From: Ensifer sesbaniae | GTDB lineage: Bacteria; Pseudomonadota; Alphaproteobacteria; Rhizobiales; Rhizobiaceae | NCBI RefSeq assembly: GCF_013283665.1 | Contig: NZ_JABEKU010000001.1 | Location: 186,001-250,000 of the forward strand | DNA length: 64,000 bases | Direction: 5' to 3' | The notes under the pieces: generated by a model | The model's database searches: none | Told to the model about the DNA's origin: nothing | The model's input: the letters and a program-made list of their open reading frames with translations, nothing else | Translations under genes and position numbers: made by a program | Shown here: positions 2,634-20,912 of the stretch, piece by piece | Position numbering within the stretch: position 1 is the first letter of the stretch | How the letters are laid out: every line of letters starts with the position of its first letter

Positions 2634-3134
2634 ATGGGCCAGGGGTTCTTCCTTTTGTTTGCTGCGGGGGCCGTGATCACTGCCCTGACAGTCGTCCTGG
2701 CGCGCAACCCGGTTCATAGCGCATTGGCGCTGATGGCATGTTTCCTGCAAATCTCGGCAATCTTCGTTCTGCTCGAGGCACCGTTGCTCGCGGTTGTGCA
2801 GATCTTCGTCTATGTCGGCGCCATCATGGTCCTCTTCCTGTTCGTGATCATGATGATCGACGTGCGCGAAGCAATGCTGCAGCGGTTTCTGCCCGGGCGA
2901 AATCTGCCTGCATTGGTGCTGCTCCTCCTGCTTGGCGTCGAGATGCTTGCGCTGGTGTTCTGGAGTGGGCGCTTTTCGGCGGCTGAGCCGATCGCGCCAC
3001 GTGGCGGCGACCAAGTCAGGCAGCTCAGCACGACACTTTTCGCCGACTATCTCCTGCCGTTTGAAGTCGCCTCGATCATCCTTCTCGCGGCACTCGTCGG
3101 TGCCATCGTGCTGGCGCGCAAGGAGTCCGGGTGA
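2634..3134 (+). CDS. nuoJ: NADH-quinone oxidoreductase subunit J
   Basis: 166-residue membrane subunit of respiratory complex I with five hydrophobic helices. The stretch [20 protein letters not shown] is the hallmark NuoJ third helix (pi-bulge region) that links the quinone site to the proton channels. The start at ATG 2634 is supported by GGGAGAGG eight bases upstream; an in-frame ATG at 2607 lacks such a site. It is the first gene of the J-K-antiporter-L-M-N block, and its TGA overlaps the ATG of nuoK. Its length is at the short end for NuoJ. Confidence 0.93.
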
Positions 3135-3436
3135 TGGTTCCGCTCTGGTGGTACATTTCGCTCGCAGTGGTCCTGTTCGTGATCGGAGCCGCGGGTGTGC
3201 TGCTCAGGCGCAATATCCTGGTCGTGCTGATGTCGCTCGAGCTGCTGCTGAACTCCGTCAACATCAATTTCATTGCCTTCGGACGTTACTACGATGATTT
3301 TCGCGGACAGATATTCGCGATCTTCGTCATCGCCATCACCGCGGCGGAGGTTGCCGTCGCCCTCGGCATTCTGGTCGCCCTCGTGAGGAACAAGTCCACC
3401 CTCAAGATCGACGACGTGACGACGATGAAAGGATAG
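3134..3436 (+). CDS. nuoK: NADH-quinone oxidoreductase subunit K
   Basis: 100-residue, three-helix subunit, MrpC-related. It contains the signature [15 protein letters not shown] with the conserved membrane glutamate of helix 2, and a second conserved glutamate in [12 protein letters not shown] of helix 3; both are needed for proton transfer in the family. It starts at the ATG overlapping the nuoJ stop (TGATG); a GTG one codon earlier is an alternative. Four bases separate it from the next gene, which indicates translational coupling. Confidence 0.95.
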
Positions 3437-3440
3437 CGGC

Positions 3441-4904
3441 TTGGAACCGGTGCTGTCAGTCCGGCCGCTACTTGCCGTCGCCATCGCCGGGCTGGCGGCA
3501 CTTGCAGTTCTCCTTCTTAACAAGCATGAGAAAATCCGGGATGCCGTCTCGCCTCCGGCCGCGGTCGCCATGTTCGCGATCGTGATCTCGATGGCGCCCA
3601 CCGTGCTGGCGGGCCGCACCGTCGAACAGCGCCTGTTCGAGATCCTGCCGGGGATCGACTTTGCTTTCCGGGTCGATGCGCTCGGCATGGTGTTTGCCAC
3701 CGTCTCGTCGCTCCTTTGGATTGTCGCGGCAGTCTATTCCATCGGCTACATGCGGCACCTGAACGAGCACGCACAGACCCGCTTCTTCGCCTGCTTTGCC
3801 ACCAGTCTCGCGGCGGCAGTCGGTGGTGCTTTTGCCGCCAATCTCTTCACGCTGGTGATCTTCTACGAGGTGCTGAGCCTCGTGACCTATCCGCTCGTCT
3901 ATCACCATGAGGACGAAGAGGCCTGGGCGGGAAGCCGCAAGTACCTCGTCTACTTGATGGGGGCGTCAAAGAGCGTGCTTCTCGCCGCGCTGGCGCTGAC
4001 CTATCAAATTGCCGGATCGCTCGACTTTCTACCCGGCGGGTTGCTGGCGAGGGCCGATGCCTCGGCGCCGCTGCTGACGATTATCTATTTCTGCTACCTC
4101 TTTGGTTTCGCCAAGGCCGCAGTGATGCCGATGCATGCCTGGCTGCCCGCTGCGATGGTTGCACCGACGCCGGTCAGTGCGCTCTTGCATGCCGTGGCGG
4201 TGGTGAAGATGGGCGTGTTCTGCGTGCTGCGGGTCGTGTTCCATGTCTTCGGCGTGGATTTGGTCGGCAGGCTGGGGCTCGGAATTGCAACGGCCTATCT
4301 CGTCTCCTTCACCATCTTGATGGCGTCGATCTACGCACTGACGCGGGATGACCTCAAGGCGCGGCTCGCCTATTCGACCGTCAGCCAGCTTTCCTACGTG
4401 GTGCTAGGCGCGGTGCTTTTATCCCCCGTCGCGATGGTCGGCGGTATCATTCATATCGCGGTGCACGCCTTCTCCAAGATCACGCTGTTTTTCTGTGCCG
4501 GATCGATCTACTGCGCCTCGGGAAAACGAAACATCAGCGACATGGCCGGCATTGGCCGCCGGCTGCCCTGGACGATGGGGGCGTTCTTCGTCGCTTCACT
4601 CAGCATGATCGGCGTGCCGCCGACCGCCGGTTTCGTCAGCAAGTGGTATCTGACGCTCGGCTCGGTCGAAGCTGGCGAGATGGCTTTCCTGGCCGTCCTC
4701 TTGGCGAGTTCGGTCCTCAACGCCGCCTACTTCCTGCCGGTGAGCTATATCGCTTTTTTCAAAGCGGACGCGCCGGGAGCGGTGGAGCCGGTCCGTGAAA
4801 TTCCGCTGGTAACGATCCCGCTGGTCGCGACCGCGGCCTTGTCGGTGCTGATGGGTATCTTCCCCGGTTACTTCCTCGCCTTGGCGGAAGGAGTGGTCAG
4901 ATGA
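3441..4904 (+). CDS. Extra antiporter-like complex I subunit (MrpD/NuoM-like)
   Basis: 487-residue polytopic protein of the proton-conducting membrane transporter family (PF00361) shared by NuoL/M/N and Mrp antiporters. Conserved channel residues are visible: the glutamate in IFYEVLSLVTYPLV (helix 5), the lysine in AVAVVKMGVF (helix 7), RDDLKARLAYSTVSQLSY (helix 8 region) and the lysine in GFVSKWYL (helix 12). It has no C-terminal lateral helix, so it is NuoM/MrpD-like in size rather than NuoL-like. It starts with TTG at 3441, four bases after nuoK. As separate NuoL, NuoM and NuoN genes follow, this is a fourth antiporter-like subunit, one more than in canonical complex I. Automatic annotation may call it nuoL. 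Confidence 0.88.
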   Translation: MEPVLSVRPLLAVAIAGLAALAVLLLNKHEKIRDAVSPPAAVAMFAIVISMAPTVLAGRTVEQRLFEILPGIDFAFRVDALGMVFATVSSLLWIVAAVYSIGYMRHLNEHAQTRFFACFATSLAAAVGGAFAANLFTLVIFYEVLSLVTYPLVYHHEDEEAWAGSRKYLVYLMGASKSVLLAALALTYQIAGSLDFLPGGLLARADASAPLLTIIYFCYLFGFAKAAVMPMHAWLPAAMVAPTPVSALLHAVAVVKMGVFCVLRVVFHVFGVDLVGRLGLGIATAYLVSFTILMASIYALTRDDLKARLAYSTVSQLSYVVLGAVLLSPVAMVGGIIHIAVHAFSKITLFFCAGSIYCASGKRNISDMAGIGRRLPWTMGAFFVASLSMIGVPPTAGFVSKWYLTLGSVEAGEMAFLAVLLASSVLNAAYFLPVSYIAFFKADAPGAVEPVREIPLVTIPLVATAALSVLMGIFPGYFLALAEGVVR

Positions 4905-5155
4905 TCAAGCGTGTCGTCGATTTCTTTGGTGACGAGGGCCATGCGAGGTCGCGCCGCCGATTGTTCTATCTCATGCTCGTTCTGGTCGTTGTCGCCGATC
5001 TTCTGGTTGCGCGCGAACACGCCGAATATTTATGGGACCGTTTGCCTGGCTGGTCCGCCGCCTACGGCTTCGGCTCCTGTGTGCTGCTTATTTTCGTTTC
5101 CAAGTTCCTCGGCCATCAGGGCGGGCTCATGCGGCGCGAGGACTATTATGATTGA
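4901..5155 (+). CDS. Small two-helix membrane protein of the nuo cluster, unknown function
   Basis: 84-residue protein that overlaps the preceding stop (ATGA) and the following nuoL start (8 bases), so it is embedded in the operon. It has a basic N-terminus (RSRRR), a hydrophobic segment LFYLMLVLVVVADLLVA, a loop with WDRLPGWSAAYGF, a second hydrophobic segment VLLIFVSKFLG and a charged tail RREDYYD. It is not a NuoJ, NuoK or NuoA paralogue. Similar small proteins sit beside MrpD/NuoL-type genes in other bacteria as far as I recall, but I know no assigned role. Its position between the extra antiporter and NuoL suggests an accessory or assembly subunit for the longer membrane arm. Confidence 0.82.
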   Translation: MIKRVVDFFGDEGHARSRRRLFYLMLVLVVVADLLVAREHAEYLWDRLPGWSAAYGFGSCVLLIFVSKFLGHQGGLMRREDYYD

Positions 5156-6908: not shown

Positions 6909-6916
6909 GAGGTGTG

Positions 6917-8392
6917 ATGGCGTTCCCTCTGCTCAGCCTGATCGTCCTCGTACCCGCCGCCGGGGCAGCGGTTGTGATGTTCCTGCGCAGCGACGATCTC
7001 GTGCGATGGGCGGCACTTACCGTCACTTTACTCGACCTGGCGCTCGCCATCGTGATGCTTGCCGGTTTCGACACCGGGACCTCCGGGATGCAATTCGTCG
7101 AGAGGCGCCCATGGGTGCCGGCGCTCGGCATTACCTTTGCGCTCGGCGTCGACGGGATCAGCGCGCTCTTCGTGTTTCTCACGGCGCTGCTGGGCTGGAT
7201 CTCGGTGCTCGCCTCATGGATCGCCATCGACCGCAAGGTGAAGCAGTTCACGATCAGCCTGCTGGCGATGCAGGCCCTGATGCTGGGTGTGTTCTCGGCG
7301 CTCGACCTCTTCCTGTTCTACGTTTGCTGGGAAGCGATGCTGATCCCGATGTATCTGATCATCGGCGTCTGGGGCGGCGACGGTCGGGTCTATGCGGCAT
7401 TCAAGTTCTTCCTCTACACCTTGGCGGGCAGCCTCCTGTTCCTGGTCGGGATCATCGTGCTGTACTTCGAGGGCGGCAGGACCTTCGACATCCTCGCCTT
7501 GATGGCGCTTGACCTGCCGTTCGAGGTTCAGTCCTGGCTGTTCTTCGCCTTCCTCGTGGCATTCGCAGTCAAGGTGCCGATGGTGCCGTTCCATACCTGG
7601 CTGCCGGACGCCCATGTGCAGGCTCCGACGGCGGGCAGCATCATCCTCGCCGGAGTGCTTCTGAAGATGGGCGCCTACGGCTTCCTGAGGTTCTCACTGC
7701 CAATGCTGCCGGAGGCTTCGGTATATTATTCGACCCTGATGATGGCGCTCTCGGCACTCGCGATCGTCTATGGCGGCCTGCTTGCGCTGGCGCAGGACGA
7801 TCTGAAGAAACTGGTGGCCTATTCCAGCATCAGCCACATGGGTTTCGTGACGCTTGGGATTTTTGCCCTCAACCCGCTCGGCCTCCAGGGCAGCATCCTG
7901 CAGATGTTCAATCACGGCGTGACGACCGGCGCGCTGTTTCTGTTCGTTGGCCTGATCTACGAGCGGACCCACACCCGCAGCATCGCCGACTATGGCGGAC
8001 TGATGAAGGTCGCGCCTGTCTACACCGGATTTCTGGCGCTGTTCGTGCTGTCCTCGATGGCACTGCCGGGGACGAATGCGTTCGTCGGCGAGTTGCTGGT
8101 GCTGTCGGGCGGGTTTGCGGCCAACCTTGCCCTTGGCGCGATCGCAGTTTTGGGGGCATTGTTGGGCGCGGCCTATTTGCTCGGCATGTATCGGAGAGTG
8201 GCGCTTGGCCCGGCGAACGTCGGTGCGCGGTTCAAGGTCCGCGATGTCAATGGCCGCGAGATGGCAGCGATCCTGCCGCTCGCCGTCTTCGTGCTCTGGG
8301 TCGGGCTCTACCCAAAGCCCTTTCTCGCCATCATCGATAGCTCGGCGATGCATCTCTTGCAGCAACTCCACGACAAGGGGAGCGGCCCATGA
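6917..8392 (+). CDS. nuoM: NADH-quinone oxidoreductase subunit M
   Basis: 491-residue antiporter-like subunit. NuoM hallmarks are TFALGVDGISALFVFLTALL, CWEAMLIPMYLIIGVWGG (helix-5 glutamate and the family signature), VKVPMVPFHTWLPDAHVQAP with the following lysine helix, and DDLKKLVAYSSISHMGF. The ATG at 6917 follows TAGGAGGT at an ideal distance; a GTG at 6899 overlaps nuoL and is less likely. Its last four bases (ATGA) overlap nuoN. Length is normal for the family, and it is the closest to canonical NuoM of the antiporter subunits in this cluster. Confidence 0.95.
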   Translation: MAFPLLSLIVLVPAAGAAVVMFLRSDDLVRWAALTVTLLDLALAIVMLAGFDTGTSGMQFVERRPWVPALGITFALGVDGISALFVFLTALLGWISVLASWIAIDRKVKQFTISLLAMQALMLGVFSALDLFLFYVCWEAMLIPMYLIIGVWGGDGRVYAAFKFFLYTLAGSLLFLVGIIVLYFEGGRTFDILALMALDLPFEVQSWLFFAFLVAFAVKVPMVPFHTWLPDAHVQAPTAGSIILAGVLLKMGAYGFLRFSLPMLPEASVYYSTLMMALSALAIVYGGLLALAQDDLKKLVAYSSISHMGFVTLGIFALNPLGLQGSILQMFNHGVTTGALFLFVGLIYERTHTRSIADYGGLMKVAPVYTGFLALFVLSSMALPGTNAFVGELLVLSGGFAANLALGAIAVLGALLGAAYLLGMYRRVALGPANVGARFKVRDVNGREMAAILPLAVFVLWVGLYPKPFLAIIDSSAMHLLQQLHDKGSGP

Positions 8393-9825
8393 CCGCCGCA
8401 GCGCTCCTTCCGTCGATCCTAGCGAGCCTGCCCGAAATCACCGTGGTTGCGGGAGCCTGCATCCTGCTGATCGTCGGACAGTTGGTGCCGAAGGGACAGG
8501 AAGCCATCATTGTCTGGGCCTCGGTCGCAGTCGTGCTCTTTGCCGCCCTGGCAACATTCACGCTGTCGGGTGGGCCGCCGGCCTATGCGGGCATGTTCGT
8601 GGCCGACCCGTTCTCCGTCTTCTTCAAGTCGCTGTTCTACCTGGCGGTCGTCCTGACGTTTCTGCTCTCGCGTAATTATGCCGACATTGAGGGGATCGGC
8701 GGCAGCGAATACTACGTGCTGTTGCTCCTTGCACTTTCCGGCATGATGATCATGGCCTCGGCCATCGATCTCCTGTCGATCTATGTCGGCCTCGAATTGA
8801 TGGTGCTCTGCACCTACGTGCTGACCGGCTTCCTGCGGCGTGAACAACGGTCAAACGAGGCGGCGTTGAAATACGTGATCCTCGGCGCGGTCTCGACCGG
8901 GATTTTCCTCTATGGCGTCTCGCTGGTCTACGGCCTCACCGGCACGACGCAACTGGACCGGATGGCGGCGGCCGTCACCGGCGATCCGCTCGATCCGGGC
9001 CTGCTGCTGGCGGTGGTCTTCATCGTCGCCGGACTGGTCTTCAAGATTGGCGCGGTACCGTTCCACATGTGGGTGCCGGATGTCTACGAGGGCGCACCGA
9101 CGACGATAACCGCCTTCATGTCTGTCGGGCCCAAGGCGGCGAGCTTCGCGGTGATCCTCAGAGTGTTCCTCAACCCCCTTGTTGCCGGCTCCAATGTCTG
9201 GATCATATTGGCCGTGATCGCGGTGGTGACGATGGCGCTCGGCAGTTTCGTGGCGCTGGTGCAGGATAATTTCAAGCGCCTGCTCGCCTATTCCAGCATC
9301 GCCCATGCTGGCTTTGCCATTTTCGGCATCGTAGCCGGCGGTGCCGACGGGATCGCCAGCGTGATGCTCTACCTGCTGATCTACACCTTCATGAATCTCG
9401 GTATCTTCGGTGCCGTCATCATGATGCGAAACGGCAATTTCTCGGGCGAGGTTATCGAGGAGTATGCGGGTTTCGCCAAGATGCATCCGGGGCTGGCATT
9501 GTTGATGTTGCTCTATCTGTTCTCGCTCGCGGGCATTCCGCCGACAGCCGGCTTTTTCGCCAAGTTCTATGTGCTGGTGGCGCTCGTCGAACGTGGTTTC
9601 GTCTTGCTGGCCGTGATCGCAGTGCTCTTGAGCGCTGTTGCCGCCTATTTCTACATCCGTATCGTCATGGTGATGTTCATGCGCGAGCCGGCGCGGGAGT
9701 TCGAGCCGGCGCTAACGCCCCTGGTCGGTGCTGCTCTCGCCGTCACTGCCGCCGGCACTGTCGGCATCGGTTTGTTTCCTGCGTGGTTTCTAAGGCTGGC
9801 GCAGCAGTCGGCCTTCGGCGGCTGA
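8389..9825 (+). CDS. nuoN: NADH-quinone oxidoreductase subunit N
   Basis: 478-residue antiporter-like subunit nearest the J/K end of the membrane arm in known complexes. NuoN features are the N-terminal LPSILASLPEITVVAG, the glutamate in IYVGLELMVLCTYVLTGF, KIGAVPFHMWVPDVYEGAPT with the helix-7 lysine, QDNFKRLLAYSSIAHAGF, and GIPPTAGFFAKFY with the helix-12 lysine. It overlaps nuoM by four bases. It closes the first block; 155 bases separate it from the preferred nuoA start. Confidence 0.95.
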   Translation: MTAAALLPSILASLPEITVVAGACILLIVGQLVPKGQEAIIVWASVAVVLFAALATFTLSGGPPAYAGMFVADPFSVFFKSLFYLAVVLTFLLSRNYADIEGIGGSEYYVLLLLALSGMMIMASAIDLLSIYVGLELMVLCTYVLTGFLRREQRSNEAALKYVILGAVSTGIFLYGVSLVYGLTGTTQLDRMAAAVTGDPLDPGLLLAVVFIVAGLVFKIGAVPFHMWVPDVYEGAPTTITAFMSVGPKAASFAVILRVFLNPLVAGSNVWIILAVIAVVTMALGSFVALVQDNFKRLLAYSSIAHAGFAIFGIVAGGADGIASVMLYLLIYTFMNLGIFGAVIMMRNGNFSGEVIEEYAGFAKMHPGLALLMLLYLFSLAGIPPTAGFFAKFYVLVALVERGFVLLAVIAVLLSAVAAYFYIRIVMVMFMREPAREFEPALTPLVGAALAVTAAGTVGIGLFPAWFLRLAQQSAFGG

Positions 9826-9980
9826 GCGATCGGATTTGCATTGGCCTATCCGACGGAATAAACTAGCAGTTTAGGAAAGGAATGCCCTTCGTCGCTTCCC
9901 TGGGGCGACCGCGTTACCGGCCTGAATGAGTCGATCGCGGCTTGTGCAACGCCCCCCGATAGGTGACAGGGCTGCGCGAT

Positions 9981-10346
9981 ATGTCTGCAGCGGATTTCCT
10001 GCCGGTACTTATCATGATCGCCGGAATTGTTCTGGTGGCGGGGGTGACGCTATTTGTTTCCTCGCTGTTGCGGCCGTCCAATCCTTACCCCGAAAAGAAC
10101 ATGCCCTATGAATGCGGCATGGACCCATCAGGCGAGGCAGCCGGCGGGCGGTTCAGGGTGCAGTTCTTCATCCTCGCGATCCTCTTGGTCGTCTTCGATG
10201 TCGAGGCGATGTTTCTCTTCCCCTGGGCCGTCGTCCTCAAAGAGATCGGTATCGTCGGCTATCTTGAGATGTTCGTCTTCATCGTGCTGCTTCTCGTGGG
10301 TTTCGCCTATGCCTGGCTGAAGGGAGCGCTGGAATGGGAGGAATAG
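9981..10346 (+). CDS. nuoA: NADH-quinone oxidoreductase subunit A
   Basis: 121-residue, three-helix subunit. The signature [12 protein letters not shown] lies in the loop that contacts the quinone channel, followed by [27 protein letters not shown], the most conserved part of NuoA. The start is ambiguous: ATG 9981 gives the usual [11 protein letters not shown]-terminus, and GTG 9963 would add six residues; neither has a strong ribosome site. The 155 bases upstream may carry a second promoter. TTGCAT at 9836 with AT-rich hexamers near 9856-9865 is the best but weak candidate. The gene overlaps nuoB by 13 bases. Confidence 0.93.
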
Positions 10347-10837
10347 GAAACACGATCCAGGATAGCGTCCTGTTCACCACGGCCGACAGCGTCATCAGTT
10401 GGAGCCGAAGATCGGCCCTGTGGCCCGAAACCTTCGGGATCGCCTGCTGCGCGATCGAAATGATCTCGGCGGGCTGCGCGCGCTATGATCTAGATCGGTT
10501 CGGCGTGGTGTTCCGCCCGTCGCCGCGGCAGTCCGACGTGATGATCATCGCCGGCACCGTCACCCGGAAATTCGCTCCTGTCGTGCGCCGGCTCTACGAC
10601 CAGATGCCCGAGCCGCGCTGGGTGATCGCCATGGGCACCTGTGCCATATCGGGCGGCGTCTACAACACCTATGCCGTCGTGCAAGGCTCTGAGACCTTCG
10701 TGCCGGTCGATGTGCACGTGCCTGGCTGTCCACCGCGCCCCGAGGCGCTGATGCACGGTTTCCTGCTGCTGCAAGAGAAGATCAAGAGGTCCCGCGCACT
10801 GGCCGGAACGCCTCTCGATCGGGCTGCGGCATCATGA
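10334..10837 (+). CDS. nuoB: NADH-quinone oxidoreductase subunit B (N2 cluster)
   Basis: 167-residue peripheral-arm subunit that carries [4Fe-4S] cluster N2, the electron donor to quinone. The ligands are visible: the tandem cysteines C38-C39 in [11 protein letters not shown]103 in [10 protein letters not shown] and C132 in [29 protein letters not shown] is the family block. A small insertion (ISAGCA) after the tandem cysteines differs from the usual MM-x-RYD spacing. It overlaps nuoA by 13 bases and nuoC by 4 bases (ATGA), so A-B-C are translationally coupled. Confidence 0.95.
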
Positions 10838-11370
10838 GTGTGGAGCCGTCTCTCAATCGCGCTCCAATCCTGGAGCGCTTCGGGCAAGCGATCGAGGATC
10901 TCGGCACCGCGCATGACATCGATGTCTTTGCCGTTCCGCCTGAAAAGATCGTCGAGTTCTGCCGTTTCCTGAAAGACCAGCCGGAGCTCCGGTTCAATTT
11001 CCTTTCCGACATCTGCGGGGTTGACCACTATCCCGAAACACCGCGCTTCGAGGCGGTGTACCACCTCTATTCACTGCCCAATCGTTGGCGGGTCCGCATC
11101 AAGTGTCGACTTGGCGATCCGCCCGAAGTCCCCTCTGTCACCGGGGTCTGGCGCACCGCCAACTGGCACGAGCGAGAGGCATGGGACATGTATGGCATCC
11201 GCTTTCTGGGACATCCCGATTTGCGCCGGATCTACATGTGGGAGGGCTTCGAGGGCTTTCCCCAGCGCAAGGATTTCCCGCTCAGGGGTTACAAGGACAA
11301 GCTGAACCCGTTTGGTGCCGAAGGTCCGCCGCCGACACAGCCCGACCTCGCCACCCGGGACATTCCATAG
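10834..11370 (+). CDS. nuoC: NADH-quinone oxidoreductase subunit C
   Basis: 178-residue hydrophilic subunit of the connecting module (30 kDa family). The C-terminal signature [20 protein letters not shown] and the following DFPLRGY are clear. It is a stand-alone NuoC, not fused to NuoD as in enterobacteria. It starts with the ATGA overlap of nuoB and ends 92 bases before nuoD; that gap contains a 24-codon reading frame with a strong ribosome site. Confidence 0.94.
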
Positions 11371-11386
11371 GGAGGGAGAAGGCAAG

Positions 11387-11461
11387 GTGCGCGCGGTTTT
11401 CCGTTCGGACGGATCCGAAATCATCGTGAACTACGCGGGCCGATCGACGCCGGAGAGTTGA
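11387..11461 (+). CDS. Candidate 24-codon leader reading frame before nuoD
   Basis: A GTG at 11387 is preceded by a purine-rich run containing AGGGAGGGAGAAGG and opens a 24-residue frame that ends one base before the nuoD ATG. The predicted peptide contains VFRSDGSEIIVNYAG. Its good ribosome site and tight spacing suggest a translated leader that couples nuoC to nuoD, or a relic. There is no homology evidence, so this is a candidate only. Confidence 0.3.
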   Translation: MRAVFRSDGSEIIVNYAGRSTPES

Positions 11462-11462
11462 G

Positions 11463-12677
11463 ATGACCGAAGTCACCGAGCTCACGAGACCGGAAGGTGA
11501 AGCGCTCAATAGCAAGGAAGTGCTTCTCAACCTCGGACCACAGCACCCCAGCACCCATGGGGTCCTCCGGCTCGTCCTCCAATTGGACGGCGAGTATGTC
11601 GAGCGCGTCGATCCCCATATCGGCTACCTGCATCGCGGCACCGAAAAACTGGCGGAGAGCTTTACCTATACCCAGATCTTCCCGCTGACCGATCGGCTCG
11701 ACTATCTCTGCCCACCGTCCAACAACCTGGCCTTCGCGCTCGCGGTCGAGAAACTGCTCGGCATCGAGGCGCCGATCCGGGCGCAATATATCCGCGTGAT
11801 GATGGCGGAACTCGCGCGCATCTCCGGTCATCTTTTGATCACCGGTGCGCTGCCGATGGATCTCGGCGCCATGACCGCACTGCTTTACGTCATGCGCGAG
11901 CGCGAAATGATCATGGATCTCCTGGAAATGATCACCGGCGCGCGCATGCACACCTCCTTCTGTCGGGTCGGCGGCGTGCGCGAGGACCTGCCTGACGGGT
12001 TCTTTGCGAAGATCAGGGAGTTTTGCGACATCTTCCCGAACCGGATTCGCGACTACGAGCGGCTTCTCGAGAAAAACCGGGTGTTCCTCAAGCGCACTCA
12101 GGGGATCGGGGTGATCGCTGCCGAGGACGCCATTGATCTCGGCCTGAGTGGCCCCAACCTGCGGGCTTCCGGCGTCGACTGGGACATCCGCCGCGACGAG
12201 CCTTACGAGATTTACGACCGGCTTGAATTCAATGTCGTCACCCGCGAGGAGGGCGATTGTTATGCGCGTTGGCGGTGCCGGGTCGATGAGATGCGTGAAA
12301 GCATCCGGATCATCGAACAATGCATCGAGCAGATGCCTGAGGGGCCGTTCCAGATCGACATGCCGACCGTCGCATTCCCCGTCGACAAGGAGCGCGTGCA
12401 TTGCTCGATGGAGGCGTTGATCCAGCATTTCGACCTGTCGGCCTATGGCTTCAACGTGCCGAAGGGCGAGGTCTATTCGGCAATCGAGGCGCCCAAGGGC
12501 GAGCTGGGCTTCTACATCATCAGCGACGGCTCGCCGAAGCCGTTCCGCATGAAGGTCAGGGCGCCCTCATTCGTCAACCTCCAGGCCGTCTTCGGGGTGA
12601 CGAACGCCCGTTATCTGGCGGACATGATCGCCGTGCTCGGCAGCCTTGATCCCGTGATGGCGGAGGTAGACAAGTAG
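11463..12677 (+). CDS. nuoD: NADH-quinone oxidoreductase subunit D (49 kDa, quinone site)
   Basis: 404-residue subunit that forms the quinone-binding pocket with NuoB. NLGPQHPSTHGVLRL carries the conserved quinone-site histidine, and TDRLDYLCPPSNNLAFALAVEKLLG carries the tyrosine that binds the headgroup; LDYLCPP differs slightly from the commoner LDYVSPM. The C-terminus GSLDPVMAEVDK matches the usual GSLDPVMGEVDR. The ATG at 11463 has GGAGAGTTGAG upstream. It is separated from nuoE by a short gap. Confidence 0.95.
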   Translation: MTEVTELTRPEGEALNSKEVLLNLGPQHPSTHGVLRLVLQLDGEYVERVDPHIGYLHRGTEKLAESFTYTQIFPLTDRLDYLCPPSNNLAFALAVEKLLGIEAPIRAQYIRVMMAELARISGHLLITGALPMDLGAMTALLYVMREREMIMDLLEMITGARMHTSFCRVGGVREDLPDGFFAKIREFCDIFPNRIRDYERLLEKNRVFLKRTQGIGVIAAEDAIDLGLSGPNLRASGVDWDIRRDEPYEIYDRLEFNVVTREEGDCYARWRCRVDEMRESIRIIEQCIEQMPEGPFQIDMPTVAFPVDKERVHCSMEALIQHFDLSAYGFNVPKGEVYSAIEAPKGELGFYIISDGSPKPFRMKVRAPSFVNLQAVFGVTNARYLADMIAVLGSLDPVMAEVDK

Positions 12678-12693
12678 CGGGGATTTGGACGTG

Positions 12694-13206
12694 ATGACGA
12701 TGCGCGAAAAGATCGAACAGGCGGCGGCGCGGTACCCCGATCGGCGGTCGGCGATCATGCCCGCGCTTCTGATCGCGCAGCGGCAACATGGCCATTTGCC
12801 TGGGCCGGTGCTGGAGGAGGTGGCAGAAATCCTCGGTGTCGAGCGGATCTGGGTCTACGAGCTTGCGACCTTCTACACGCTTTTCCACACCGAGCCGGTG
12901 GGGAAGTTTCATCTGCAGCTCTGCGACAATGTTTCCTGCATGCTGCGGCGATCGGAGGATCTGCTGAGGCATCTGGAGGACGTTCTCGGGATCGAGAAGG
13001 GCGGCACGACTGCGGATGGCCTGTTCACGCTCTCGACCGTCGAATGCCTGGGGGCCTGCGAGATGGCCCCGGTGATGCAGGTCGGCGACGACTATCACGG
13101 CAATCTCGACATTGCGCGGATAGATGCGCTCCTCGCACGGCTGCGCGCGACGGTGCCCCACTCGATCGGCGCCGATCTTGCGGCTGCGGAACCACCGGGG
13201 GAATAG
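12694..13206 (+). CDS. nuoE: NADH-quinone oxidoreductase subunit E (24 kDa, N1a)
   Basis: About 170-residue thioredoxin-like subunit carrying the [2Fe-2S] cluster N1a. Ligands are visible as two pairs, LCDNVSC and ECLGAC. The WVYELATFYTLFHTEPVG block is typical. The start is uncertain by a few codons: ATG 12694 is preferred, GTG 12691 and ATG 12700 are in frame, and GGGGA at 12679-12683 can serve any of them. Length is near the family norm. NuoF starts four bases after its stop. Confidence 0.94.
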   Translation: MTMREKIEQAAARYPDRRSAIMPALLIAQRQHGHLPGPVLEEVAEILGVERIWVYELATFYTLFHTEPVGKFHLQLCDNVSCMLRRSEDLLRHLEDVLGIEKGGTTADGLFTLSTVECLGACEMAPVMQVGDDYHGNLDIARIDALLARLRATVPHSIGADLAAAEPPGE

Positions 13207-13210
13207 CGCC

Positions 13211-14476
13211 ATGTTCGAGCCGGTTCTTTTGAAGAACGTGTACGTGCCGGATGGACATCTCATCGCCACCTATGAGGCTGGCGGCGGCTATCGGGCGCTT
13301 GAGAAAGCGCTCAAGGAATACACGCCCCACGACATCGTCGAGCTCGTAAAGAGATCGAACTTGCGCGGCCGCGGCGGAGCCGGGTTTCCGACGGGGATGA
13401 AATGGAGCTTCGTGCCGAAGCGGGCCGATAAGCCGAAATATCTCTGCTGCAACGCCGACGAAGGAGAGCCCGGAACCTTCAAGGATCGGATTATCATGGA
13501 GCGGGACCCGCATCAGCTGATCGAAGGCATGGCCATCAGCGCCTACGCGATCGGGGCCGAGGTCGCCTATGTCTACGTCCGCGGGGAGTACGTGCTGGCG
13601 ATCCGACGCCTGGAACAGGCGATCGCAGAGGCCGAGGCCAAGGGGTATCTCGGAGCGCGGATATTAGGCTCGGATTTCAATTTCGTCGTGCACGTCCACT
13701 GCGGCGCTGGCGCCTATATCTGCGGCGAGGAGACAGCGATGCTCGACTCGCTCGAGGGCAAGAGAGCGCAGCCGCGCCTGAAGCCGCCGTTCCCGGCGGT
13801 CGCGGGGCTCTATGCCAGCCCGACGGTCATCAACAATGTCGAGACCCTGGTCTGCGTGCCGCATATCGTGGCGCGCGGCGCCGATTGGTTCCGCGGCATC
13901 GGGCCGGAGAAGAGCCCCGGCCCGAAGCTTTATTGCGTCAGCGGGCATGTGCGCAAACCGGGGCTTTACGAACTGCCGATGGGAATTCCGCTTCGCGAGC
14001 TCATCGAGGATCATGCCGGCGGGCCGCCGACCGGGCGCAAGATCAAGGCGGTGATCCCAGGCGGTGTTTCCGCGCCGGTGATCCCGGAGCAGGGCCTGGA
14101 CGTCGGGATGGATTTCGACTCGCTTGCCGCCGTTGGCTCCATGCTCGGCTCGGCCGGGGTGATCGTCGTCGACGACACGACCTGCATGGTCAGGGTCGCC
14201 ACCCGGATCATCGAGTTCTTTCACCACGAGTCCTGCGGCAAGTGCACGCCCTGCCGCGAGGGCTTGAACTGGGTAGTGAAAGTGCTCCGCCGGATCGAGG
14301 CTGGCGAGGGCGCAGCCGGCGACATGGAGCAGCTGGACATGCTGTGCAAGGGCATTTTCGGCAATACCTTTTGTGCCCTGGGGGACGGCGCGGCTATGGG
14401 CTTGCGGGCCTCGCTGACGCACTTCCGCGATGAATTCGTCGCCCATATCGAGGAGCGGCGCTGCCCGTTTGTTTGA
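13211..14476 (+). CDS. nuoF: NADH-quinone oxidoreductase subunit F (NADH/FMN site)
   Basis: 421-residue subunit that oxidises NADH. The glycine-rich NADH/FMN loop LRGRGGAGFPTGMKWSF is followed by CNADEGEPGTFKDR, and later ICGEETAMLDSLEGKR. The [4Fe-4S] N3 ligands are ESCGKCTPCREG plus the cysteine in GNTFCALGDGAA. The ATG at 13211 gives the normal short N-terminus; an in-frame ATG at 13124 lies inside nuoE. It forms the NADH dehydrogenase module with NuoE and NuoG. Confidence 0.96.
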   Translation: MFEPVLLKNVYVPDGHLIATYEAGGGYRALEKALKEYTPHDIVELVKRSNLRGRGGAGFPTGMKWSFVPKRADKPKYLCCNADEGEPGTFKDRIIMERDPHQLIEGMAISAYAIGAEVAYVYVRGEYVLAIRRLEQAIAEAEAKGYLGARILGSDFNFVVHVHCGAGAYICGEETAMLDSLEGKRAQPRLKPPFPAVAGLYASPTVINNVETLVCVPHIVARGADWFRGIGPEKSPGPKLYCVSGHVRKPGLYELPMGIPLRELIEDHAGGPPTGRKIKAVIPGGVSAPVIPEQGLDVGMDFDSLAAVGSMLGSAGVIVVDDTTCMVRVATRIIEFFHHESCGKCTPCREGLNWVVKVLRRIEAGEGAAGDMEQLDMLCKGIFGNTFCALGDGAAMGLRASLTHFRDEFVAHIEERRCPFV

Positions 14477-14480
14477 GGGA

Positions 14481-14497
14481 CGCCCTCCGCGAGGGCG
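14481..14497 (+). other. Short intercistronic hairpin between nuoF and nuoG
   Basis: CGCCCTC-CGC-GAGGGCG forms a perfect 7-base-pair stem with a 3-base loop, ending ten bases before the nuoG start. It lacks a T-run, so it is not a classical terminator. It could modulate nuoG translation initiation or mRNA processing. Confidence 0.4.
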
Positions 14498-14507
14498 CGA
14501 GTAAGTC

Positions 14508-17081
14508 ATGGTAAGCGTTACGATCAATGGACAAACACTCGACGTTGATGCCGGCACGACGGTGCTGCAGGCCGCGCAGCGATTGGGCATCGAGATTCCG
14601 ACCTTCTGCTACCTGAAGCGCCTGCCGCCGCTTGCCTCCTGCCGCATGTGTCTTGTCGAGATCGAGGGACTGCGCCGGCTGCAGCCGTCCTGCGCCACCG
14701 CGGTCACGGACGGCATGGTCGTGCGAACCGACACGCCGCTGATTGATGAAACGCGTTCATCCATGCTCGACATGCTGCTCGCCAACCACCCGCTCGACTG
14801 TCCGATCTGCGACAAGGGCGGCGAATGCGAACTTCAGGACATGGTGATGGCCTATGGCCCGGGGAAAAGCCGCTTTCGTGATCCCAAGCGCGTCTTCCAC
14901 TCCCGCGACATTCGGCTGAGCCCAGTCGTCATCATGAATGTCAACCGCTGCATCCAGTGCCAGCGCTGTGTGCGGATGTGCGAGGAGGTCGTCGGCGCGG
15001 TCGCCCTTGGCACCGTCGAGAAAGGCATGGATACGGCCGTCACCGGGTTCGAGGGTAGTCTCGCCAGTTGCGACCAGTGCGGCAACTGCATCGAGGTCTG
15101 CCCGGTTGGCGCACTGATGAGCTTCCCCTATCGCTACAAGGCACGGCCCTGGGACCTCGCCGAGACCGACACCGTCTGCCCGCATTGCGGCACCGGCTGC
15201 CAGGTGACCGTCGGGGCGCGCAAAGGCGAGTTCATGCGGGTCCGCTCCAAGGAGGAGCACGGCGTCAACCGCGAAACGCTCTGCGTGCGTGGCCGCTTCG
15301 GCCTCGACTTCATCGAGGGACATGATCGGATCAAGCGACCGATGATCCGTCGCGATGGCGTCCTGGTTCCGGTTTCCTGGGATGAAGCAGGAGCCTATCT
15401 GCGTCGGCGGCTGGCAGCGGTCGAAAACAAGGCAGCTGGCGGAATTGTCTCGCCGCGCCTGCCGAACGAGGTGCTCTATCAGTTCCAGAAACTGATGCGC
15501 ACTGTCTTCGGAACCAATAACATCGACTGCTCGTCGCGCTGGTCTACTCCCTTCGATGCGCTCGGCCCGGTGATGGCGAACTACACGCGTGCGCCGCTGA
15601 AGGAGGTGATCGGCGTCGATCGCGTGCTCGTCATCGGTGGCAATGTGACGGAGGAAAACCCGGTTACCGAATATCTGCTGCGGGATGCCGCCCGGCGGCG
15701 GCGCACCGGATTGCTCATGCTCACGACGCGGCCGTCCCGTCTCGACGCCGATGCCGATGTCGTGGTTCGCGTGGCCCCCGGCGGGGAGGCCGCGAGCCTG
15801 GCGGCCGTGGTCGCTCGACTTGCGGTGGCGGCCGGTGAGAAACTGACGGTCGACGCTCTTGACGAGATGGGCGTGACAAACGGCGGGCCGGCGGGCAATG
15901 GCAGCGACGGACCGGATCGTCTGGCCGCCGCGCTCAACGAAGGCAGCACCGTCACCGTGCTTGTCAGTGTCGACCTCCTGAGGTCATCCGAAGCGCGCGC
16001 GTCGTTGCTGCAGCTCAGCAATCTGTTGCAACTTCTCCGCCTCCTCGGCAAGGCCCCGGCATTGCAGATCCTCTTCGACCGCGCCAACCAATTGGGCGCC
16101 TGGGACATGGGGGTCGCAGCGGGTGCCTTGCCGGGGCTGCAGGCGATCGCCGACGATACGGTGCGTGCCGCTCTTGCCCGGAACTTGGCGGCCGAAATCC
16201 GCCATGAGCCGGGCGCCGATCTCGACGGGATGCTGGATCTCTGCGCCGCTGGGCAGATGGGCGTGCTCTATCTCGTCGGAGCCGACCCGCTGATCGCCTA
16301 TCCGGACAGGGAGTTCGTGGCCCGGGCGCTCGGTGCCGTCGATCTGCTGATCGTGCAGGACAGTTTCCTGACTGAGACGGCGGGTCTCGCCGAAGTCGTC
16401 TTGCCGGCAGCGGGCTACGGTGAAGAAGCCGGCAGCTTTACCAACAATGAGGGACGCGTCCAACAGGTGCGCAAGTTCCGGGAACCGGTGTTCGAGGCGC
16501 GAGGCAATCTCGCGATCTTCGATCTTGTCGCAGCTTCGCGCGGCCAAACATTGCAGCATTCGACGCAGGTCGAGATTTTCGAAGAGATCGCCCGGCTGAT
16601 CCCGGCCTATCAGGCGTTGACTTGGGCCGGGCTTGGCGCCGACGGTGCCTTTACCAAGGCCGGTCCGACGCCGCCGGCGGGCGCTTTCCGCGCTCCGCCA
16701 CCTGTCTTACAGGCGAGCGACGGGCTCATGCTCGTCACGGGCAACTGCCTGTTCCACAATGGGTATCTTTCGGAGCGCTCGGAGGTCCTGAACACGGTCG
16801 CCAACGACCCCTATGTCGCTTTGAGTGCTGAGAATGCTGCGCAGCTCGGCCTTTCGGACGGCGATCAGGTGGTCGTTCGTTCGACCCGCGGGGCGCTGAC
16901 GGCGCGGCTCAAAGTCGAGAAGGCGTTTCCCAAGGGCCTCGTCTTCGTTCCCGAAAACTATCGGTCTTTGCGCCTCAACAGCCTGATGCGGCGAGGTGAA
17001 TACCCGTGTCCGGTCGAGGTTCAAAAGGCGCAAGCTGCGCACGAGATCGACGCCAGCGCCCGAATCTGGCGCGGAGCGTGA
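14508..17081 (+). CDS. nuoG: NADH-quinone oxidoreductase subunit G, long form with N7-type motif
   Basis: 857-residue iron-sulfur subunit. The N-terminal ferredoxin domain has [2Fe-2S] ligands C34, C45, C48 and C62; the N5 motif uses H94, C98, C101 and C107; two CxxCxxCxxxC sets follow (NRCIQCQRCVRMC and CDQCGNCIEVCP) for N4. Around residue 223 the molybdopterin-oxidoreductase-like domain opens with VCPHCGTGC and a fourth cysteine in ETLCVRGRFG, the N7 pattern known from E. coli, Thermus and formate dehydrogenases. The C-terminus has a MopB-type binding domain (SERSEVLNTVANDPYVALS). The active-site Cys/Sec of formate dehydrogenase is absent (IDCSSRWSTPF), so catalysis on formate is not expected. 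Mitochondrial-type alphaproteobacterial NuoG is shorter (about 690 aa) and lacks N7. Confidence 0.94.
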   Translation: MVSVTINGQTLDVDAGTTVLQAAQRLGIEIPTFCYLKRLPPLASCRMCLVEIEGLRRLQPSCATAVTDGMVVRTDTPLIDETRSSMLDMLLANHPLDCPICDKGGECELQDMVMAYGPGKSRFRDPKRVFHSRDIRLSPVVIMNVNRCIQCQRCVRMCEEVVGAVALGTVEKGMDTAVTGFEGSLASCDQCGNCIEVCPVGALMSFPYRYKARPWDLAETDTVCPHCGTGCQVTVGARKGEFMRVRSKEEHGVNRETLCVRGRFGLDFIEGHDRIKRPMIRRDGVLVPVSWDEAGAYLRRRLAAVENKAAGGIVSPRLPNEVLYQFQKLMRTVFGTNNIDCSSRWSTPFDALGPVMANYTRAPLKEVIGVDRVLVIGGNVTEENPVTEYLLRDAARRRRTGLLMLTTRPSRLDADADVVVRVAPGGEAASLAAVVARLAVAAGEKLTVDALDEMGVTNGGPAGNGSDGPDRLAAALNEGSTVTVLVSVDLLRSSEARASLLQLSNLLQLLRLLGKAPALQILFDRANQLGAWDMGVAAGALPGLQAIADDTVRAALARNLAAEIRHEPGADLDGMLDLCAAGQMGVLYLVGADPLIAYPDREFVARALGAVDLLIVQDSFLTETAGLAEVVLPAAGYGEEAGSFTNNEGRVQQVRKFREPVFEARGNLAIFDLVAASRGQTLQHSTQVEIFEEIARLIPAYQALTWAGLGADGAFTKAGPTPPAGAFRAPPPVLQASDGLMLVTGNCLFHNGYLSERSEVLNTVANDPYVALSAENAAQLGLSDGDQVVVRSTRGALTARLKVEKAFPKGLVFVPENYRSLRLNSLMRRGEYPCPVEVQKAQAAHEIDASARIWRGA

Positions 17082-17138
17082 GGATTGGGCACGAAACACT
17101 CGCAAGGCGTGGCGTTATCCAGCCGGCGCGAAGCGACA

Positions 17139-17579
17139 TCAATGATAACCAGCGCCAGCAATGTATTCGTGCAGATGCCGCTCCGTGCGCTGCGCCTCGT
17201 CCAGCCGATGCTTGACCACGTCACCGATGCTGACGACGCCGACAATGGCCTCCTCCTCCATCACCAGCACGTGACGCGTCCGCCGCTGGGTCATGATCGA
17301 CATCACCAGGGGCAGGCCATCCAGAGTGGAACAGATCGCTACATTGCGGTTCATGATGTCGGCAACCGGCATCAGCGCTGCCTCGGGACCGTATTCCGCA
17401 AGCGCGTTGCAGCAATCTCGTTCCGACAGCGTGCCGAGATACCTTCCTGGCGCGTGGCTGACGACCACGAAGCCGATGTTGTTGTCACGAAAGAGCCGCA
17501 GGACCTCCACCATCGTCTGGTCGGGAGCGACTGTGATCACCCCGACGCCCTTGTCCTTCACGATTTCACCGACAAACAT
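17139..17579 (-). CDS. Two-CBS-domain protein in the nuoH-nuoI transcript
   Basis: 146-residue cytosolic protein made of two CBS modules: about residues 8-65 (VITVAPDQTMVEVLRLF with GTLSERD) and about 75-130 (IMNRNVAICSTLDG with GVVSIGDVVKHRL). Pairs of this kind form Bateman dimers that bind AMP/ATP, S-adenosylmethionine or NAD-type ligands. AGGAGG lies just upstream of the ATG at 17579. It begins 36 bases after nuoI on the same strand and converges on nuoG. Such stand-alone CBS proteins are common in rhizobia, but the placement here suggests an energy-sensing role for this complex. The ligand is not predictable from the sequence. Confidence 0.88.
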   Translation of the reverse strand: MFVGEIVKDKGVGVITVAPDQTMVEVLRLFRDNNIGFVVVSHAPGRYLGTLSERDCCNALAEYGPEAALMPVADIMNRNVAICSTLDGLPLVMSIMTQRRTRHVLVMEEEAIVGVVSIGDVVKHRLDEAQRTERHLHEYIAGAGYH

Positions 17580-17615
17580 CTGAGCCTCCTATCTTCGCGC
17601 CCCGGTTTGATTCCT

Positions 17616-18182
17616 TCACGTTCGCCGGATGTTGCGCCACCAGTTGTAGCCATGCGGCTCGCTCGTCTCGACCAGCACATCCTGTTCCGTGTTCAGACGC
17701 GCAGCGACGACGCCACCGCCGGTCATTGCTTTTCCAGGTTTGCCAAGCAGATCATCACGTCCGATCACAAGGTCGCGTGACGAGAAACTCGAGAACTCAT
17801 ACTGCTGGCCAAGGGCGATGGCGTCCGCCGGGCAAGCGTCCTCGCACAGGCCGCAGAACAGGCACCGGGCCGTGTCGATCTCGAATTTTGCTGGGTGGCG
17901 GTTGCCGTTTTCGTCCTCATAGGGGACGACCTCAATGCAATCGCAGGGGCAGATGCGAGCGCAAAGTTCGCACGCGACGCATTTGATTTCGCCCTCTTCA
18001 TCCCGTTTCAGGAAGTGATGGCCGCGATAGCGCGAGTAGGGGAGCCATTTCTCCTTGTCCGGATACTGCATGGTCACGGGCCTGGAGAACATATAGCCAA
18101 AGGTCAGCATGAAAGCTTTTGCCAGATCGACAAAAAGCGCCCAGCCGATCCATGTTCCAGCTCTGTCGACTATGCGTGACAT
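17616..18182 (-). CDS. nuoI: NADH-quinone oxidoreductase subunit I (two [4Fe-4S])
   Basis: 188-residue peripheral subunit that bridges NuoG and NuoB. The N-terminus has an amphipathic anchor (FVDLAKAFMLTFGYMF) and YSRYRGHHFLKRDEEGEIKC, followed by two ferredoxin motifs, CVACELCARICP and CLFCGLCEDACP, for clusters N6a and N6b. It is encoded on the strand opposite to nuoJ-N and nuoA-G. A 128-base gap with a possible promoter separates it from nuoH. Confidence 0.95.
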   Translation of the reverse strand: MSRIVDRAGTWIGWALFVDLAKAFMLTFGYMFSRPVTMQYPDKEKWLPYSRYRGHHFLKRDEEGEIKCVACELCARICPCDCIEVVPYEDENGNRHPAKFEIDTARCLFCGLCEDACPADAIALGQQYEFSSFSSRDLVIGRDDLLGKPGKAMTGGGVVAARLNTEQDVLVETSEPHGYNWWRNIRRT

Positions 18183-18310
18183 CGTTGCGTCGTTCTACAG
18201 CGGCGTGCGTTCCACCGCAGGAGGGTCGCTGTAGTCCCTTCGATCGCTGCACGTTCTTTCCTGAGATCGACACCGATCCAGGGAAACACGTGGAGAAGCC
18301 GCCATGGCTC

Positions 18311-19297
18311 CTAAGTAAAAGCAATACCAGTAATAATTATGTTCGCCATCGACAGAGGAAGCAAGACCTTCCATCCGATCGCCATCAGTTGGTCATAACG
18401 ATAGCGGGGCAAGGTGAAGCGGAACCACATAAATACGTAAATGAAGAATGCTACCTTGAGCGCAAACCACAGAAGCGGCGGCAACGGGATCAAGACGCCG
18501 TTCCAGCCGCCAAAAAACAGGATGACCGAGAGGACCGATACCAAAAGCACGATGACATATTCGCTGACCATGAAGAACGCGAAACGGATACCGCTGTACT
18601 CGGTGTGGAACCCGGCGCCGAGATCCCCTTCCGCCTCGGCCAGGTCGAAGGGAATGCGTTGCGCTTCGGCCAATCCCGCGACGAAGAAGACGAAGAACCC
18701 GATCGGCTGATACACGATGTTCCAGAGGTCGCTCTGGGCGCGCACAATGTCCACGAGGCTCATCGACTGCGCCAGCATGACGACGCCGATGACCGCGAAA
18801 CCCATGGGGATTTCGTAGCTGATCATCTGCGCGCAGGTCCTGAGACTGCCCAGGACCGCGTATTTGCTGTTGGCGGCCCAGCCGCCGAAGATGACGCCAT
18901 AGACTTCCAGCCCGATCACCGCGAAGACGAAAAGCAGCGCCACGTTCAGGTTGGAAACGTAGAGGGTGATCTCGGCATTGAGCACTGAGATCGTCTCGCC
19001 GAAGGGAATGGCGACGAACACGACAAAGGGTGGCGCGAGCGCCAGGATTGGCGCCAGTTTGAACAGGAAACGGTCGGCCTCTGCGGGAATGTGGTCTTCC
19101 TTCGTCAGGAGCTTGATACCGTCGGCCACGGGCTGCAGCAGCCCATGCCACCCGACGCGCATGGGACCCATCCGCTGCTGCATGTGGCCGGCAATCTTGC
19201 GTTCCAGCCAGGTCAAAGGCAAAGGCAGGAGAAGCAGCATTGCGATCAGCAACGCGATCTTGATGGCGATCAGGCCAAGGGCGAAGAGAACTTCCAT
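18311..19297 (-). CDS. nuoH: NADH-quinone oxidoreductase subunit H
   Basis: 328-residue, eight-helix subunit that forms the quinone chamber with NuoB and NuoD. TWLERKIAGHMQQRMGPMRVGWHGLLQP is the strongest family block, with the E-R-K and RxGP features; EAEGDLGAGFHTEYSGIRFAFF is the acidic loop near the quinone entry, and FMWFRFTLPRYRYDQLM the C-terminal signature. The ATG at 19297 gives the normal N-terminus and follows AGGTGG; upstream in-frame codons read into a repeat element. It heads the divergently oriented nuoH-nuoI-CBS unit. Confidence 0.95.
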   Translation of the reverse strand: MEVLFALGLIAIKIALLIAMLLLLPLPLTWLERKIAGHMQQRMGPMRVGWHGLLQPVADGIKLLTKEDHIPAEADRFLFKLAPILALAPPFVVFVAIPFGETISVLNAEITLYVSNLNVALLFVFAVIGLEVYGVIFGGWAANSKYAVLGSLRTCAQMISYEIPMGFAVIGVVMLAQSMSLVDIVRAQSDLWNIVYQPIGFFVFFVAGLAEAQRIPFDLAEAEGDLGAGFHTEYSGIRFAFFMVSEYVIVLLVSVLSVILFFGGWNGVLIPLPPLLWFALKVAFFIYVFMWFRFTLPRYRYDQLMAIGWKVLLPLSMANIIITGIAFT

Positions 19298-19814: not shown

Positions 19815-19860
19815 TTGACAATGGCCATATACTTGGAATATTGGGTAATCGATAACCCAA
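19815..19860 (+). promoter_or_regulatory. lacI-operon promoter with overlapping LacI-family operator
   Basis: TTGACA at 19815-19820 is a consensus -35 box; an ATATTG hexamer starts 17 bases later (19838-19843). TTGGGTAATCGATAACCCAA at 19841-19860 is a near-perfect 20-base dyad centred on CG, the usual architecture of LacI-family operators, and overlaps the -10 and likely start site. Since it lies just before the lacI start (TTG 19875), it implies autorepression and control of the whole sugar operon. Assigning the dyad to this repressor is inference from position and symmetry. Confidence 0.75.
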
Positions 19861-19874
19861 CGGAAAGAGCCAAG

Positions 19875-20873: not shown

Positions 20874-20912
20874 GAATCAGTTTCAATCGCATTCAAACGG
20901 AGGAGAACTTTC

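Follow-up and report, generated by a model that had tools for sequence, protein, structure and literature searches.

The DNA considered here is a stretch of 64,000 nucleotides from Ensifer sesbaniae (contig NZ_JABEKU010000001.1, positions 186,001 to 250,000; hereafter, the window), in which positions 2634-19297 carry an intact cluster of complex I (nuo) genes. Alongside the canonical enzyme, this cluster very likely provides a second NADH:quinone oxidoreductase, the green complex I of rhizobia. Green complex I is already published; subunit identities and key residues are corrected here. On the forward strand, the genes are arranged in the order nuoJ, nuoK, X, s, L', nuoM, nuoN and nuoA to nuoG; nuoH, nuoI and a gene for a CBS-domain protein lie on the reverse strand and converge on this block (Table 1). 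The operon contains nuoM and nuoN and no canonical nuoL, the position of which is held by a cassette of three genes, X-s-L', encoding two MrpD-like antiporter subunits (X and L') and a small protein (s). Judged from these gene products, the membrane arm probably contains four proton-channel-like subunits, and the four antiporter-like subunits counted in an earlier note on this DNA were borne out as X, L', NuoM and NuoN.

The 487-residue frame of X, pointed out in the earlier note, is a real antiporter-like gene (PF00361, 172.8 bits). The same note had listed all fourteen canonical subunits; J, K, M, N and A to I are indeed present, whereas the supposed NuoL (open reading frame 4911-6908) is not canonical. 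It scored 150 bits with NDH_I_L, for which the cut-off is 407.5, and a canonical NuoL is missing from the cluster. The frame matched instead NF009310 (779 bits), a family named 'Na(+)/H(+) antiporter subunit D', and both this model and that matched by X (NF006236) carry the name cation/H+ antiporter subunit D. From the reading frame and the S. meliloti annotation, the likely start of L' is the ATG at 5148, the longer frame opening at 4911.

Members of the X-s-L' cassette are also found side by side in alphaproteobacterial operons of the type X2-X-s-L', where X2 is a third Mrp-like partner. Such loci are called stand-alone Mrp-like on the basis of two annotated records, which contain Mrp E, F, G and DUF4040 genes, and because no other nuo match was found within the 8-19.5 kb fetched around each (some clipped by contigs); loci L062 and L208 each gave one NuoN-like best match. 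They differ from the green cluster in having no adjoining nuo genes in the fetched stretches, a shorter spacer of 54 residues in L' and another L' tail.

To place the window's proteins, a tree of 126 antiporter-like proteins was built by quick maximum likelihood and drawn with a midpoint root, its deep joins being unreliable by the program's own warning. The sample was drawn from the named green loci, that is, the best 80 of the 171 stretches encoding a relative in our genome collection: every tenth X (8/78) and L' (8/80) and every twentieth NuoM and NuoN (4/80 each) were taken, and X2 was sampled at every second sequence, canonical NuoL at every fourth. Proteins shorter than 400 residues were excluded (the L' of locus L043), and the genome's own Mrp proteins were represented by MrpA1, MrpD1 being a fragment. 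NuoL, NuoM, NuoN and X2 formed one group each, and X fell outside the NuoM group, so that its reading as an extra NuoM could not be kept. X clustered with Mrp-like X and L' with Mrp-like L'. The green L' and those of g63, a genus of the same class and another order, joined an Mrp-like L' from genome G740 with a support of 97, and for the green and g63 X taken together, the sister group comprised 29 of the 31 Mrp-like X. Because of this grouping, the X/L' pair appears to have been recruited from Mrp-like antiporters, or else to descend from a direct ancestor common to both.

In the earlier note, a grouping of X with Mrp antiporters was to count against its place in complex I, and taken to the letter the tree goes against it, since X does group there. 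We read this as recruitment and not as a refutation of complex I membership, because X lies in a nuo operon in 78 of the 80 loci and L' has a long lateral-helix spacer. The nearest relative of the window's L' found outside a nuo cluster is encoded in an X2-X-s-L' operon (L202, G740:C65) and is about 60% identical over residues 1-493.

The lateral-helix spacer was counted from the D of DxxYD/DWxYR to xQTG. Of the 31 canonical NuoL, 29 had a spacer of 49 residues and the E. coli protein one of 44; the last could not be measured. In all 80 green L' (76 by pattern, four others separately) and in one g63 relative (L044), it comprised 73 residues. For the Mrp-like L', which belong to three-subunit systems, it was 54 residues in 14 of 18 cases (one 55, three not measurable). 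In MrpA (13 regions fetched, two without MrpA), the spacer was 21 residues in 10 of 11 proteins and 22 in one, as read from the alignment, seven of the 11 having no QTG motif. When a Trp residue served as anchor, the count was 52 in 29/31 NuoL, 72 in 71/80 green L' (the pattern missed the other nine) and, for Mrp-like L', 53 in 25/30 (two 52, three missed). At 1.5 Å per residue, 20-24 residues correspond to 30-36 Å, which is about one antiporter-like subunit. A 73-residue spacer would be fitting for an arm with four such subunits. In 65 of the 80 green L', the hydropathy peaks of transmembrane helices 15 and 16 (TM15-TM16) are 111 residues apart, about 20 more than in Mrp-like L' (88-95 in 9/30). 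For canonical NuoL the distance was 99-109 in the 13 of 31 proteins with both peaks found, E. coli giving 99. In the remaining proteins, one of the peaks escaped detection or a different peak was picked.

The last 45 or so residues of the window's L' matched a profile of 30 canonical NuoL tails, all from Pseudomonadota, at 37.7 bits (E 8e-12). A profile of 27 Mrp-like L' tails gave 8.3 bits (E 0.018), covering the first 32 residues after DWFYR. By hhalign, the L' tail was aligned with the NuoL tails at 98.0% (E 1.5e-13) versus 81.1% (E 1.2e-5) with the Mrp-like tails. On these profiles, the tail looks clearly nearer to NuoL than to Mrp-like L', and L' can be described as a MrpD-like body with a NuoL-like C-terminal tail. 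As the cassette occupies the place of nuoL, its insertion into that gene with retention of the NuoL tail would be the simplest account.

The charged residues of helices 5, 7, 8 and 12 have a functional meaning that is general knowledge for complex I. Their positions were aligned to E. coli NuoL E144, K229, H254 and K399 and NuoM K265. In X, NuoM and NuoN, the alignment showed that the helix-5 Glu, the helix-7 Lys, the helix-8 Lys and a Lys or Glu on helix 12 are kept; X has both His and Lys on helix 8, and Lys on helix 12. The window's L' keeps the helix-5 Glu, the helix-8 Lys and the helix-12 Lys, with Asn on helix 7. The claim that each of the four large subunits has the helix-5 Glu and the helix-7 Lys thus held for X, NuoM and NuoN and failed for L' at helix 7. 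The same Asn is found in both g63 L' relatives; among the Mrp-like L', the position is Asn in 8/18 and Lys in 10/18.

Taken together, a membrane arm of the order [H-A-J-K]-N-M-X-L' is proposed, in which L' would stand at the far end and brace the arm by its lengthened lateral helix. As to its origin, an Mrp-like X-s-L' cassette would have entered nuoL, the last 45 or so residues of NuoL being fused to L', and the two part-helices would after fusion sum to the longer lateral helix. Quinone reduction would drive proton transfer through NuoN, NuoM and X in the usual way, and L' may or may not add a fifth proton per NADH, because this subunit has no helix-7 Lys. How many protons each subunit moves is a question for which complex I variants with additional antiporter-like subunits offer a natural test, and since the green form occurs in cultivable rhizobia that have the ordinary enzyme too, both can be compared in one cell. 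The subunit without a helix-7 Lys, the unnamed small gene and the step-like spacer provide testable handles on an open mechanism.

Several observations weigh against this picture. The helix-7 Asn is present in 80 of 80 green L' homologues. With the Trp anchor, the gain of green L' over NuoL drops from 24 to 20 residues, and over the whole TM15-TM16 distance L' exceeds canonical NuoL by only 2-12 residues, a net gain that is small because L' is shorter ahead of the first anchor. As regards the chimera, the first 32 tail residues match the Mrp-like profile no more than marginally, hhalign also puts this profile, more weakly, on the same final part (columns 53-82), and the taxonomic range of the NuoL profile is narrow. 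The AlphaFold models of L' reached a mean predicted local distance difference test score (pLDDT) of 40.1 from the single sequence and 57.9 with 49 green sequences, with values below 50 in the lateral helix, too poor to check the helix or the chimera, and no conclusion was drawn from them. Moreover, the evidence that places X, s and L' in one complex is at the level of genes. In the comparison of the two given in PMC9040806, the rhizobial subunits do not have the insertion of the five-subunit Candidatus Manganitrophaceae enzyme.

A wider reading can nevertheless be formulated, in which the spacer is a ruler of about 25 residues per subunit (21, 49-54, 73 and a reported further 26), X-s-L' was inserted into nuoL in one step that fused the part-helices, s sits where X and L' join as a further, undescribed subunit, and the CBS protein acts as a nucleotide-sensing regulator. 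We put this forward tentatively, as possible and not as the expected outcome, and our estimate was lowered by a small step because of the hhalign match to the Mrp-like tail and the net gain of 2-12 residues.

Among the other explanations, the most serious leaves the four antiporter-like subunits in place and makes L' a structural end cap only, the enzyme still moving about four protons per NADH. The Asn shared by all green L' and both g63 relatives speaks for such a role, for which we see somewhat less than an even chance: the window's L' retains its charged residues on helices 5, 8 and 12, and the presence of Asn in nearly half of the Mrp-like L' implies that a helix-7 Lys may not be needed in this family. 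It is unlikely, on the other hand, that X, s and L' make up an independent antiporter of the Mrp type, linked to the nuo genes by nothing more than a common operon, with a complex I that has no distal pump or borrows the chromosomal NuoL. X and L' are of Mrp-like type in the tree and X-s-L' homologues do occur together outside nuo clusters; against this, all 17 cluster gene products were scanned and no Mrp B, C, E, F or G subunit was found among them, and X2 is missing from the cluster. Furthermore, wherever a named locus is not clipped by a contig end, X-s-L' is enclosed by nuoK and nuoM, and L' has a NuoL-like tail and a spacer longer than that of Mrp-like L'.

The two-NuoM (2M) complex I of the Nitrospira type, with a duplicated NuoM as its extra subunit and a lengthened NuoL, would also give four antiporter-like subunits and a long lateral-helix spacer. 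It was ruled out by the tree and the family scores, and we consider it highly improbable: a single one of the four subunits belongs to the NuoM group, X and L' lie outside it, and the cluster encodes no canonical NuoL. The earlier note had pointed to a published two-NuoM precedent that included rhizobia; a rhizobial precedent does exist, and it is green complex I and not the 2M form.

Green complex I (Degli Esposti & Martinez-Romero 2016) is described in PMC9040806 as having two MrpD-like subunits in place of NuoL, and is credited there with a fourth pumping subunit. According to the summary of the 2016 paper in PMC7415380, about 70 Alphaproteobacteria have two complex I operons, and the green operon is upregulated in symbiosis in strains possessing it; a figure legend in PMC4967309 indicates an additional 4Fe-4S cluster in NuoG of green complex I. 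The present cluster agrees with this system in the two MrpD-like subunits that stand for NuoL (family scores and tree), in being a second operon beside canonical nuo, in its Sinorhizobium/Rhizobium hosts and in the rearranged order J K X s L' M N A-G (+), CBS I H (-), as in S. meliloti. This likeness of order was judged against the annotation of S. meliloti LMB1 plasmid pB and not against the order in the 2016 paper. On pB, the gene set and order are the same and s is a 'hypothetical protein'; the window's copy differs in lying on a 3.71-Mb contig with canonical nuo, and no other distinction was found. The 2M form is described, and four-subunit enzymes are mentioned, in PMC6606698 and PMC7419157. 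As given in PMC6606698 and PMC9040806, the 2M complex I of Nitrospira (Chadwick et al. 2018) likewise has four antiporter-like subunits and a longer lateral helix, and differs by its second NuoM as the extra subunit and by a lengthened NuoL that is retained. In PMC9040806, the two MrpD-like subunits of Candidatus Manganitrophaceae Complex_I_3 are reported as nearest to the rhizobial ones; this enzyme is reported to differ in its five pumping subunits, two of which are NuoM, and in a lateral helix that is longer by a further 26 residues. In the titles and abstract openings that were searched, which did not include the 2016 and 2018 originals, the tail, the spacer and the small gene were unreported.

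The cluster recurs in Sinorhizobium/Ensifer, Rhizobium, Mesorhizobium, Phyllobacterium, Microvirga and others. The identity of L' across the best 80 of 171 loci is 83-93%, a conservation which indicates that the cluster is more than chance. L', NuoM and NuoN are present in all 80, X in 78 and s in 79, the loci without X or s being clipped by a contig end at s or inside L'. In its 79 loci, s lies between X and L' and is 71-90% identical; the eightieth begins at L' residue 8. The protein has two hydrophobic stretches (by eye) and a C-terminal YYD. An open reading frame ending in YYD or alike also fills the X-L' gap in 21 of 31 Mrp-like loci; the other ten comprise seven whose gap is about as large and has no such motif, two with almost no gap and one in which L' was not found. 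Searches of Pfam and NCBIfam gave no match for s, and the solved structures (PDB) nothing better than E 0.81. We infer that s may be a subunit of the complex.

The CBS gene, absent like s from the earlier note, adjoins nuoI-nuoH in 14/14 covered relatives and in S. meliloti (15/15); 16 regions had been fetched, two of which (L222 and L223) contained no cluster gene. Its product is possibly a nucleotide-sensing partner. In the green-type complex I of g63 (L043, L044, L235 and L236, order pieced from two genomes), where X and L' are 71-74% identical to those of the window, the genes follow one another as H I J K X s L' M N A B C D E F G, and no CBS match was present in the stretches fetched. This collinear arrangement is perhaps nearer to the ancestral one.

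A role in the nodule, suggested by the earlier note, received mixed support. Green L' (at least 84% identity) was found in 15/247 sampled genomes of the family and in 11/16 of the genus; at 85% or more, it was found in 5/297 genomes of the order sample. In the family, nodA was present in 8 of the 15 genomes with green L' and in 6 of the 232 without it, where one match was weak; this association has a Fisher p of about 5e-8, not corrected for kinship. Within the genus, nodA is missing from nine of the 11 green-positive genomes and present in just two. The link of green complex I with nodulation is a tendency, not a rule. In the present genome, nodA and nifH are present on other contigs than the cluster. 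The FixK-type box TTGAYNNNNRTCAA, with at most one mismatch allowed, was not found in 2340-2634, upstream of nuoJ. The window as a whole contained seven matches versus 4.25 expected, and at least seven were obtained in 14/100 shuffles; one match lies inside nuoH (19260-19273). Low-oxygen control of the cluster finds no support in this search.

Table 1. Genes of the complex I cluster, with their positions in the window and the basis of each assignment
Gene product	Position	Strand	Basis
NuoJ (open reading frame from 2607; start chosen to fit S. meliloti gene length)	2634..3134	+	NCBIfam NuoJ models, best 131 bits, under cut-off 154; S. meliloti annotation
NuoK	3131..3436	+	NF004320 112 bits, cut-off 57
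X, MrpD-like antiporter subunit, 487 residues, TTG start	3441..4904	+	NF006236 829.7 bits, cut-off 663
s, small protein, 84 residues, overlaps X and L'	4901..5155	+	'hypothetical protein' in S. meliloti
L', second MrpD-like subunit, 586 residues	5148..6908	+	NF009310 779 bits, cut-off 564
NuoM (open reading frame from 6899)	6917..8392	+	NDH_I_M 630 bits, cut-off 263.8
NuoN	8389..9825	+	NDH_I_N 503 bits, cut-off 332.6
NuoA (open reading frame from 9963)	9981..10346	+	best NCBIfam NuoA model 109 bits, under cut-off 163; position, S. meliloti annotation
NuoB	10334..10837	+	NF005012 244 bits, cut-off 116
NuoC	10834..11370	+	TIGR01961 161 bits, cut-off 122
NuoD	11463..12677	+	TIGR01962 624 bits
NuoE	12685..13206	+	TIGR01958 190 bits
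NuoF (open reading frame from 13124; start set by S. meliloti length)	13211..14476	+	TIGR01959 656 bits
NuoG, 857 residues, Molybdop_Fe4S4 domain	14508..17081	+	TIGR01973 495 bits, cut-off 470; PF04879
CBS-domain protein, 146 residues, adjoins nuoI-nuoH	17139..17579	-	PF00571, two stretches
NuoI	17616..18182	-	TIGR01971 167 bits, cut-off 113
NuoH	18311..19297	-	NF004741 360 bits, cut-off 305

The PF04879 match covers residues 219-270 of the NuoG encoded in this cluster, the one NuoG considered. The separate canonical nuo operon, whose co-occurrence the earlier note had proposed to check, runs from nuoA to nuoN in the same genome at about C1:1,556,589-1,572,771, on the same 3.71-Mb contig as the green cluster, and its NuoL scores 933 bits. 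Two further Mrp-type pairs of antiporter-like genes are present in this genome, on contigs C1 and C3. The cluster is flanked (526-2338 and 19815-22217) by sugar ATP-binding cassette (ABC) transporter genes, a LacI-type regulator and a substrate-binding protein, which are unrelated to it by family scores.

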